Shown here piece after piece: positions 36,842 to 40,136 of a DNA stretch of 48,143 nucleotides (within the stretch, counting starts at the first letter, position 1; the number at the start of each line of letters is the position of its first letter). A program made the translations under genes and the position numbers. Source of the DNA: Opitutales bacterium (GTDB lineage Bacteria; Verrucomicrobiota; Verrucomicrobiia; Opitutales; UBA2995); the NCBI GenBank assembly GCA_022824405.1, contig JAJDZZ010000088.1, forward strand, positions 1-48,143. The letters run 5' to 3'. A model generated the notes under the pieces. That model saw only the letters and a program-made list of their open reading frames with translations, did not search any database and was not told where the DNA came from.

Positions 36842-37633
36842 ATGATGACCGCATATTTCTACATATTTTCTCGATTTACCGGCCGCCTTTTGTTGGCCGG
36901 AACGCTGGCCCTATTCCTTTTCATCGGCTCGGGTCTCCGAGCCCAAGACGGTTTCGATTCGCTCTTCAACGGTAAGGACCTGGATGGCTGGGAAGGAAAT
37001 ACCGAGCTTTGGGAAGTAAGGGACGGAATCATCGTGGGATCGACCGAAGGTCATACCATCGAAAACAACACCTTCCTCATCCACCGGGATTCCAAGCCCG
37101 CCAATTTCCATTTGAAGGTGAAACTCAAGTTGATGGGGAACAATAATTCGGGGATCATGTACCGGGCCCAGGATATCGAGGGCATCTCCCATGCGCTCTC
37201 CGGCCCGCAAATGGACGTTCATCCCAAGCTCGAATACCAGGGCATGTATTACAGCGAAAAAACCGGCCGTGGCATCATAGCCCAACGCGGTCAGAAAGTT
37301 ACCGTATCGAAACAAGTGAATGCCAAGGGCAGGACTACTCCCAAGGTCACCGGCCAACTGGGCCAGGAACCCAATTTCGATTTGTCCGAATGGAATGAAT
37401 ACGAGGTTATTGCGGTCAACAAACGTCATATCCACCTCATCAACGGGGTAGTGACCGTCGACGTCGTAGACCGCGATCCGTCCACTGCTGCATCCGGCGC
37501 CATTGGCATACAATTGCACCAGGGTCCGCCCATGGCCGTTGAGGTAAAAGACATCGCGCTTAAACACCTGCGAGGTGCGGAAGCACGTGAAACCATCGGA
37601 GCTGCTCTCGCCCAGCCGTCAAAAAAAAAATAA
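36842..37633 (+). CDS. DUF1080 (3-keto-disaccharide hydrolase-type) exported protein
   Basis: The 263-residue DUF1080 protein belongs to a laminin-G-like fold family now linked to cleavage of 3-keto-glycosides. Its export signal spans about 1-34 (RLLLAGTLALFLFIGSGLRA, cleavage before QDG). Conserved motifs are SLFNGKDLDGWEG, GIIVGSTEGHTIENNTFL and NNNSGIMYRAQ, with later QLHQGPPMAVEVKDIALKHL. The start is ATG at 36842 (a second ATG follows). The ORF is open to 36578 but the upstream part is unconserved. Its last codons lie in a run of ten A's (37621-37630) and the following haem-protein frame overlaps by 59 bases. See the slippage finding. Confidence 0.9.
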   Translation: MMTAYFYIFSRFTGRLLLAGTLALFLFIGSGLRAQDGFDSLFNGKDLDGWEGNTELWEVRDGIIVGSTEGHTIENNTFLIHRDSKPANFHLKVKLKLMGNNNSGIMYRAQDIEGISHALSGPQMDVHPKLEYQGMYYSEKTGRGIIAQRGQKVTVSKQVNAKGRTTPKVTGQLGQEPNFDLSEWNEYEVIAVNKRHIHLINGVVTVDVVDRDPSTAASGAIGIQLHQGPPMAVEVKDIALKHLRGAEARETIGAALAQPSKKK

Positions 37634-40136
37634 CGGGCTCCCCGAAGGACTGGCGGTCAACGAAAACCGGGCCACACCGGTCGACAAGATAACCGTTCCG
37701 GAAGGGTTCCAGGTCGAACTCCTCTACTCCGTGCCCGGAGATACTCAAGGCTCCTGGGTGAATCTCGGGCTCGACGGCAAAAATCGCCTTATTGCCAGCG
37801 ACCAATTCGGTCCGCTTTACCGCTTTCCGGCCCCAGCCCCGGGCAAACCACTCGATCCTGCTGACATCGAGGAAATTCCCGCCAAAATCAGAGCGGTTAA
37901 CGGTATGCTTTGGGCCTTCGATTCGCTCTACGTTGGCGTTAACGATTACGAGGATAGCAGTAAGTCGGGTCTCTACCGCCTGACCGATTCCAATGGGGAC
38001 GATCAGCTCGACCGCGTGCAACTGCTTCGGCACATTTCTGCCCGGGGGGATCACGGAGTCCACGCCGTCAAACTCGCTCCCGACGGCAAATCCATATTCC
38101 TCATCTGCGGCAACAATGCGGAACCTGTCCTCGCCGATGTTTACCGCATTTCCAACAATTGGGGCGAAGACCACCTCCTTCCCCGTATGCCGGATGGTCG
38201 CGGACACAACCGCCACCGTTTAGCTCCCGGGGGGATCATTTACAAAGTCTCTCCGGACGGAAACCATTGGGAAGTCTACTCTTCGGGCTACCGCAATATC
38301 TTCGATGCCGACTTCAATGCCGACGGTGAACTCTTCACCTATGACGCGGACATGGAGTACGATTTCAACACCCCTTGGTACCGCCCCACCCGGGTGAATC
38401 ACGTAGTCAGCGGATCCGACTACGGTTGGCGAAACGGAACGGGAAAATGGGCCGATTGGTACGCGGACAGCCTCCCGGCGTCTGTCGATATCGGTCCGGG
38501 ATCGCCAACTGGGATTTCCTTCGGCTACGGGGCCAAATTCCCGGCCAAATACCAGAAAGCCCTATTTATCCAGGATTGGAGCTGGGGAAAACTTTACGCG
38601 GTCCACTTGGAGCCAAAGGGCTCCAGCTACACGGGAGAAAAGGAAAATTTCCTTTCGGGGGTTCCCCTGCCCTTGACCGACTTGGTCATCCATCTGGACG
38701 ACGGAGCCATGTATTTCACCATTGGCGGTCGCCGGGTACAATCCGGGCTCTATCGCGTTACCTATACGGGTGACGAGGACACCTCTCCGGTGTTTGCCGG
38801 AACGGATGGACAAAGAGCCCGCGCTTTGCGAAGAAGCCTGGAAAGCTATCATGGAAGGATGGGGAACGAGGCCATTCCTCTCGCTTGGGATCATTTGGAT
38901 CATGACGATCCCTTCATCCGCAACGCCGCCCGCGCCGCCCTGGAAAGCCAGCCGCCAAGCAAGTGGAGCGACAGGGCATTTCGCGAAAAACGTCACGGCC
39001 ACAAGATTCAGTCCTTGTTGGCCCTCACCCGGGTTTGGGGAACCGATCCTTTCCATCGCGAGGAATCCGACCCGCCGGTAAACCCCGCGCAACGCGATCG
39101 AATCCTAACGGCGCTGGCGGAGATCGACTATGGAACCCTCTCCGAACGCAACCGCCAAGCCCTCGTGCGCACCTATCACGTGGCCCTGAACCGGTTCGGA
39201 CGTCCCGAGGACGATCTGGTCAGCAAGATCGTCAACCAACTCGATCCCCATTTTCCAGCCCGGACCCAGGAATCGAACCGCCTGCTTTGCGAGGCCCTGG
39301 TTTACCTGCAGGCACCCAGCGCGGCCCGAAAAACTATCGGTCTGTTGAATGCCGCCATCACCCAGGAAGAGCAGATGGAGTATGCCCGTTCACTGCGCAT
39401 GTTGAGGAATGGTTGGGACAAGGCTCTGCGCACCGAGTATTTCGAGTGGTTTCTCAAAGCGGCCAACTATCGCGGAGGCGCCAGTTTTATCCAATTCATG
39501 ACCCGCATCCGGGCCGACGCAGTAGCCACGCTTTCCGAAAGGGAAAAAATCGACTTGGCAGAAATTCTCACGCGAAAGCCCGAAGCAAAATCGCCCCTGG
39601 AAGCCGCCACGGCCACATTGGCGGGTCGAACCACCTCGACCAATTGGACGGTGGATGCTCTCTCCGGGGTGAGCGACCGCATGAGGGGAAGGGACTTCGA
39701 GCGGGGCCGTAAAATGTTTGCGGCAACCGCCTGCTTCTCCTGTCACCGCTTCAACAACGAAGGCGGCGCTAACGGACCTGACCTGACCTCGTCCGGCCAC
39801 CGTTATGCACCCCGAGACTTGCTCGATCAAATTATTAACCCCAGCAAAGAAATCAACGAACAGTTTGTTCCCGTGCAGGTGACCGAACTCGATGGTCGAA
39901 CACATCATGGAATCATAGTAAACCTGAGCAGGGACACGATCCGGATCAATACCGACTTGGCCAATCCCGACCAGAGAATCGGGTTGGACCGCAAACAGAT
40001 AAAGAGCATCAGCCCGTCTCCGGTTTCACCCATGCCTCCAGGTCTTTTGAACCTTCTGGAAAAAGAGGAGATTTTCGACTTGGTGGCTTATATTCTGAGC
40101 GGGGGCAACCCCGAGGATGAGCGTTTCAAGGATTAG
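37575..40136 (+). CDS. PVC-type haem-binding protein (propeller dehydrogenase plus cytochrome c)
   Basis: The 853-codon frame has a beta-propeller dehydrogenase-like N-terminal half (KITVPEGFQVELLYSVPGD, MLWAFDSLYVGVNDYE, VSGSDYGWRNGTG). Helical repeats follow, and then the Pirellula/Verrucomicrobium-type haem domain with CFSCH (Cys720, Cys723, His724) and GPDLTSSG. Haem c attachment requires export, yet no signal peptide is present; the only start before the conserved part is a GTG at 37575 inside the DUF1080 gene. The reading frame is +1 relative to DUF1080 and joins it at the A10 tract. This suggests one fused exported protein made by slippage, or a frameshift/assembly error. The stop overlaps the convergent esterase stop. 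Confidence 0.85.
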   Translation: MRKHVKPSELLSPSRQKKNNGLPEGLAVNENRATPVDKITVPEGFQVELLYSVPGDTQGSWVNLGLDGKNRLIASDQFGPLYRFPAPAPGKPLDPADIEEIPAKIRAVNGMLWAFDSLYVGVNDYEDSSKSGLYRLTDSNGDDQLDRVQLLRHISARGDHGVHAVKLAPDGKSIFLICGNNAEPVLADVYRISNNWGEDHLLPRMPDGRGHNRHRLAPGGIIYKVSPDGNHWEVYSSGYRNIFDADFNADGELFTYDADMEYDFNTPWYRPTRVNHVVSGSDYGWRNGTGKWADWYADSLPASVDIGPGSPTGISFGYGAKFPAKYQKALFIQDWSWGKLYAVHLEPKGSSYTGEKENFLSGVPLPLTDLVIHLDDGAMYFTIGGRRVQSGLYRVTYTGDEDTSPVFAGTDGQRARALRRSLESYHGRMGNEAIPLAWDHLDHDDPFIRNAARAALESQPPSKWSDRAFREKRHGHKIQSLLALTRVWGTDPFHREESDPPVNPAQRDRILTALAEIDYGTLSERNRQALVRTYHVALNRFGRPEDDLVSKIVNQLDPHFPARTQESNRLLCEALVYLQAPSAARKTIGLLNAAITQEEQMEYARSLRMLRNGWDKALRTEYFEWFLKAANYRGGASFIQFMTRIRADAVATLSEREKIDLAEILTRKPEAKSPLEAATATLAGRTTSTNWTVDALSGVSDRMRGRDFERGRKMFAATACFSCHRFNNEGGANGPDLTSSGHRYAPRDLLDQIINPSKEINEQFVPVQVTELDGRTHHGIIVNLSRDTIRINTDLANPDQRIGLDRKQIKSISPSPVSPMPPGLLNLLEKEEIFDLVAYILSGGNPEDERFKD
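37621..37630 (+). promoter_or_regulatory. A10 tract, candidate slippage site
   Basis: Ten consecutive A's end the DUF1080 frame (followed by TAA) and pass into the +1 frame of the haem protein. Loss of one A, or gain of two, fuses the ORFs in-frame. Confidence 0.5.

Follow-up and report, generated by a model that had tools for sequence, protein, structure and literature searches.

The window, by which we mean the whole 48,143 nt stretch that was analysed, lies on contig JAJDZZ010000088.1 of an Opitutales bacterium (Verrucomicrobiota; assembly GCA_022824405.1, here genome G000), and all of the features described in it are on the plus strand. An ORF for a DUF1080 protein (3-keto-disaccharide hydrolase, PF06439) at 36842..37633 encodes 263 aa, the predicted short product of the locus. 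Its N-terminus resembles a Sec-type signal peptide, MMTAYFYIFSRFTGRLLLAGTLALFLFIGSGLRA (36842..36943, based on sequence and hydropathy), followed by Q, and the PF06439 domain spans 36950..37564 with a strong Pfam match (7e-33, 114.7 bits against a cut-off of 26.8). The 3' end of this frame reads CAG CCG TCA AAA AAA AAA TAA, the stop TAA at 37631-37633 directly following a run of ten A's at 37621..37630, which is the candidate slippage tract.

The second gene is in the +1 frame relative to the DUF1080 ORF and encodes a PVC-type haem protein. Called mechanically, it is an 853-codon ORF from a GTG at 37575 (37575..40136), and as used in a fusion it would cover 37629..40136, with a propeller-like dehydrogenase region, a middle region and cytochrome c. 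The N-terminal region is related to TIGR02604 but divergent (37956..38714), scoring 69.9 bits and below the NCBIfam cut-off of 122.2. Toward the other end there is a TIGR02603 putative haem-binding domain (39693..40094; 1.4e-26, 93.1 bits against a cut-off of 68.15, NCBIfam) with a CFSCH haem-attachment site at 39732..39746, and Pfam also gives a cytochrome c match in this ORF. Hydropathy of the ORF start gave no signal peptide. A cytochrome with a CxxCH site requires export for cytochrome c maturation. Since the haem protein must be exported and has no signal of its own, the DUF1080 signal peptide must serve.

The two frames are joined if the transcript has one A less (A9) or two more (A12), the predicted junction then reading SKKNNGLPEGLAVNENR or SKKKNNGLPEGLAVNENR, respectively, in a product of about 1097 residues; other tract lengths lead to a stop 0 or 20 codons past the run. 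The original prediction, that the two ORFs meet at an A10 tract in just this relation, with a signal peptide on the first and none on the second, was borne out at each point. In local RNA folds around the tract, which were made without shuffled controls, no shared hairpin could be called as a stimulator. Nearby genes, among them those for a sulfatase, a ferredoxin, a TIM-barrel isomerase-like protein and an esterase-like protein, are consistent with carbohydrate use.

The tract and its frame in relatives

Relatives were sought by scanning 84,980 species genomes and, for the genus, family and order, by going through whole genomes. The family comprises eight genomes, G000 to G007, of which G001 is the genus mate of G000 and G002 to G007 make up the sister genus; G003 is a single contig of 4.8 Mb and all of the others are fragmented. 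In all of the closest relatives (66-76% identity) DUF1080 directly precedes the haem protein, and six of the eight family genomes, as independent assemblies, have an A10 or A11 at the same linker. The frame relation differs among these six. Three need to lose one A (or gain two) to join the frames, with junctions that read TC-A10-TAAC in the window, GT-A10-GATTGA in G001 and AG-A11-TGAT in G007. One, G002, needs to gain one A (or lose two) at TT-A10-CTGAAG, and two, G003 (CG-A10-TGAT) and G004 (AC-A10-GAAG), are already in frame. The other two frames stop 0-20 codons after the run in all six. G005 and G006 are without the tract, and their DUF1080 and haem parts are fused in frame.

Outside of the family, at least 26 fusions lack a long A run, and every one of them is in a single frame; these come from the f13 genomes (L135-L138), from 17 more distant genomes of the order (in L190-L214) and, for several, from the species scan. 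No A run of eight or more was found in fused homologues outside the family. Four of the six tract-bearing genomes thus have a frame break. Among fused homologues lacking an A run of eight or more, of which there are at least 28, no break occurs, and a hypergeometric calculation by hand gives about 3e-4 for this association when relatives are counted as independent, uncorrected for relatedness. Homologues with both domains in one frame, which the original prediction had suggested looking for, therefore exist in the outgroups and in G005 and G006, and the arrangement that would have spoken against it, genes always separate and a haem protein with its own signal peptide, was not seen within the clade. 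Given that the outgroups are fused, that the tract is recurrent and that the shift goes both ways, the homologues favour slippage or at least a maintained slippery tract.

Other genomes of the order (f2) have a haem protein with its own short N-terminal extension and without a fused DUF1080. In some of them (L143, L154) a separate DUF1080 gene is located directly upstream of a haem protein having its own N-terminal extension, which is possibly the unfused state. In the haem-protein tree the eight family members form one group (100/99), in which G005 pairs with G006 and G003 with G007. The simplest history of the tract would be one gain at the family base and one loss, on a tree that does not settle the deepest forks of the family.

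Purifying selection acts on the haem frame: downstream of the tract, the out-of-frame pair G000 and G001 gives a dN/dS of about 0.09, and the pair G003 and G007 one of about 0.01. Synonymous sites are saturated between the two genera, the tract is nonetheless retained, and its conservation among orthologues is beyond neutral expectation. We also considered an independent start of the haem protein, and rejected it because there is no usable start before the conserved NENRATP motif. The haem frame of the window contains no start codon between the tract and this motif, nor do those of G001 and G007 contain an ATG, GTG or TTG there. In G001 the haem frame has a TAA that overlaps the beginning of the tract, and there is no ATG, GTG or TTG until a point 113 bases from where the run begins, already within the conserved domain; the G007 haem frame is closed likewise. 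The GTG at 37575, upstream of the A run, is unsupported as a start since relatives do not have it. A second haem paralogue of G001 seemed to be split as well, and the break proved to be a masked stretch of N.

A pattern search served to count the runs of A in the genomes. Finding a single A10 in 48 kb is in itself unremarkable (shuffled windows give 0.39), and the comparison of the A10 count with shuffles in the window was dropped as evidence because it is not significant. Runs of at least ten A's number two in G000 (3.39 Mb), one in G001, which is the tract described here, two in G003 and two in G007. The only other A10 of G000 (L111, G000:C8:8755-8764) sits between short ORFs and looks intergenic. 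Of the 12 runs of nine or more A or T in G000, five are kept in G001, the DUF1080-haem tract and four other cases. Such retention between genus mates is not rare, so the case rests on the wider family and not on the genus alone; that the tract is retained within the genus is by itself weak evidence. The excess over chance is in the conservation at the DUF1080-haem junction and not in the count of A10 runs. An in-frame A9 inside a gene at L116 (G000:C35) is also present in the genus mate (L232, G001:C341). By its sequence this gene resembles a threonylcarbamoyl-AMP synthase, and slippage at its in-frame A9 would lower the amount of full-length product.

dnaX as an internal control

Among the family genomes, only one other gene, dnaX, has a recurrent A10 that is out of frame. 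Every genome of the sister genus (6/8 of the family; loci L235-L240, in G003, G007, G006, G004, G005 and G002) has a dnaX that is cut at an A10, or at an A11 in G006, and whose tau part lies in a different frame; the shift needed goes both ways among the six. Across the order, 25 of the 26 genomes examined (L251-L276) have a run of A9 to A13 at the gamma/tau junction, 13 of them out of frame and 12 in frame when classed by the distance to the next stop. Tau is required for replication, as shown in E. coli. It follows that slippage must be productive in the order, and from these sequences dnaX looks to be slippage-dependent across it.

In the window's own genus there is no long A tract in dnaX (no run of seven or more in G000, L241; A8 in G001, L242), and the gene is one continuous frame in both genomes, from which perhaps only tau would be made. 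The control is therefore drawn from the sister genus and the order rather than from G000 itself, and with the dnaX tract lost, the DUF1080-haem gene is the putative slippage site that remains in this genus.

Explanations for the shifted frames

We propose that the tract is a site of programmed transcriptional slippage (realignment), at which RNA polymerase would stutter on the A10 and give mRNAs with varying numbers of A's. Transcripts of the templated length (or with three more A's) would run into the TAA after the tract and yield the exported DUF1080 protein alone, and those with one A less or two more would continue into the haem frame and yield an exported fusion of about 1097 residues, in which DUF1080 is followed by a dehydrogenase-like region of PVC type and by cytochrome c, and in which the haem half would borrow the DUF1080 signal peptide. 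As every slipping population would hold all of the frames, the templated length could drift freely, and relatives would come to be in three frame states. Antonov and colleagues regard both shift directions among orthologues as a sign of transcriptional realignment rather than ribosomal frameshifting (PMC3711429), and since the direction varies among the orthologues here, it points to transcriptional slippage and not to a ribosomal shift of one direction. Taken with the homologues, the purifying selection and dnaX, this supports slippage among the three readings offered by the original prediction, and from the sequence comparisons we consider RNA polymerase slippage at the A10 very probably the mechanism that makes the fusion. 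We infer that the tract would slip in vivo, that a certain ratio of products would result, and that both products would be useful. Whether the short DUF1080 product is also selected for is evenly balanced in our judgment; G005 and G006 are plainly fused without a tract, so the short product is not universally needed.

The same mechanism would also operate if slippage were only tolerated, with a tract that arose by accident in a lysine-rich linker, a fusion that is rescued and a short product that is useless, much as is described for Blochmannia and Buchnera. Lysine-rich linkers do occur in some outgroups (L018, L019), only the fusion is conserved outside the family, and G005 and G006 manage without the tract, for which reason we hold this to be quite possible, if on the doubtful side. 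It sits less well with a tract kept across lineages whose synonymous sites are saturated, in genomes where runs of ten or more A's are otherwise almost absent, and with the stops that follow shortly after the run in the other two frames of 6/6 genomes.

Phase variation would place the slippage in DNA replication, such that cells with A9 have the fusion on, cells with A10 or A11 make DUF1080 alone, and the species are snapshots. The mixture of in-frame and out-of-frame lengths among species, each represented by one genome, would fit this, as would the export of the gene product and the difference of a single A between the in-frame A10 of G003 and the out-of-frame A11 of G007. However, essential dnaX has the same mixture (6/6 sister-genus genomes and 13/25 tract-bearing order genomes out of frame), and an off state cannot account for an essential gene that is out of frame, which leaves dnaX unexplained. 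G000 and G001 both have an out-of-frame tract of exactly ten A's, four of the five genomes checked have a full-length match to MutS, and slippage by RNA polymerase is to be expected on a tract of this kind anyway. We therefore think phase variation unlikely.

Translation offers two further routes, a ribosomal shift at the tract, given that Lys-AAA runs are prone to it, and reinitiation past the DUF1080 stop, given that the two ORFs overlap in the window; with a needed direction that is not constant among orthologues, a G001 haem frame without a start codon before the conserved motif, and a haem protein that would lack a signal peptide if started separately, both seem very improbable. The other readings first offered, that the assembly is wrong here or that a single genome has recently suffered an inactivating frameshift, can be set aside almost entirely. 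Homopolymers are error-prone, and of the family genomes only one is unfragmented, but the tract is in six of the eight, four different species are out of frame at the same site in independent assemblies, other A10 runs within G002 genes (tyrS, a sulfatase) are in frame, and dN/dS after the tract is low.

Relation to known systems

PVC-type TIGR02604/TIGR02603 proteins fused to DUF1080 match the window gene in domain order and in sequence, with 66-76% identity to fused relatives, but those outside the family are in one frame and without an A run of eight or more. Relatives of solved structure, found by sequence, cover the cytochrome end and the DUF1080 fold only. In Buchnera and Blochmannia, frameshifted genes are reportedly maintained through slippage at A runs; these are AT-rich endosymbionts in which A runs are common, whereas here runs of ten or more are nearly absent.

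A close comparison is with dnaX of Thermus thermophilus, where slippage occurs at an A9 (PMC1088944, PMC5009743) and there are near stops in the other two frames after the tract (PMC5009743), and with the two-ORF A10 dnaX class described in a survey (PMC3711429). Like these, the window gene has a run of A9-A10 at a domain junction, near stops, and a short and a long product. Unlike Thermus dnaX, it would make an exported enzyme-cytochrome fusion by slippage predicted from sequence, and slippage would be needed for the long form, versus the short form in Thermus. In Citrobacter rodentium tssM1, loss of one A from an A11 joins the frames, and slippage gives 20-25% full-length product (PMC4256274). 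This gene and Yersinia tssM3 also have the run before a stop, and both product forms are needed there (PMC4256274), but they encode a part of type VI secretion in few species, and family-wide conservation is not shown for tssM.

As to function, the DUF1080 member BT2157 hydrolyses 3-keto-disaccharides, and for another, CCNA_01705, which adjoins a periplasmic 3-dehydrogenase, the same hydrolysis was proposed from genetics (PMC9007349). By its domains, the fusion of a hydrolase with a dehydrogenase-like and cytochrome part would join periplasmic glycoside oxidation and cleavage, and coupling 3-keto-glycoside hydrolysis to periplasmic oxidation is its likely role, going only by the domain names. 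Automated annotation cuts what would be one exported redox enzyme in two and labels the haem half as lacking a signal.

We found no mention of slippage for a DUF1080-haem gene in the literature searched. Slippage is well supported as the reading of this locus, which would be a new example, conserved family-wide, of a known form of recoding. Apart from dnaX, insertion elements and secretion systems, few conserved cellular genes depend on slippage. The DUF1080-haem tract can be traced across a family in three frame states, with dnaX as a control alongside, in genomes nearly devoid of such runs. We suggest tentatively, with slightly more doubt than belief, that slippage in the Opitutales may be a standing and heritable device for making two proteins from a gene, which would serve dnaX throughout and would have been recruited again, in one family, for a secreted hydrolase with an optional dehydrogenase-cytochrome extension, the two forms being made in a set ratio and both needed. 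The family offers a natural series in which to ask whether slippage is selected for or merely tolerated.
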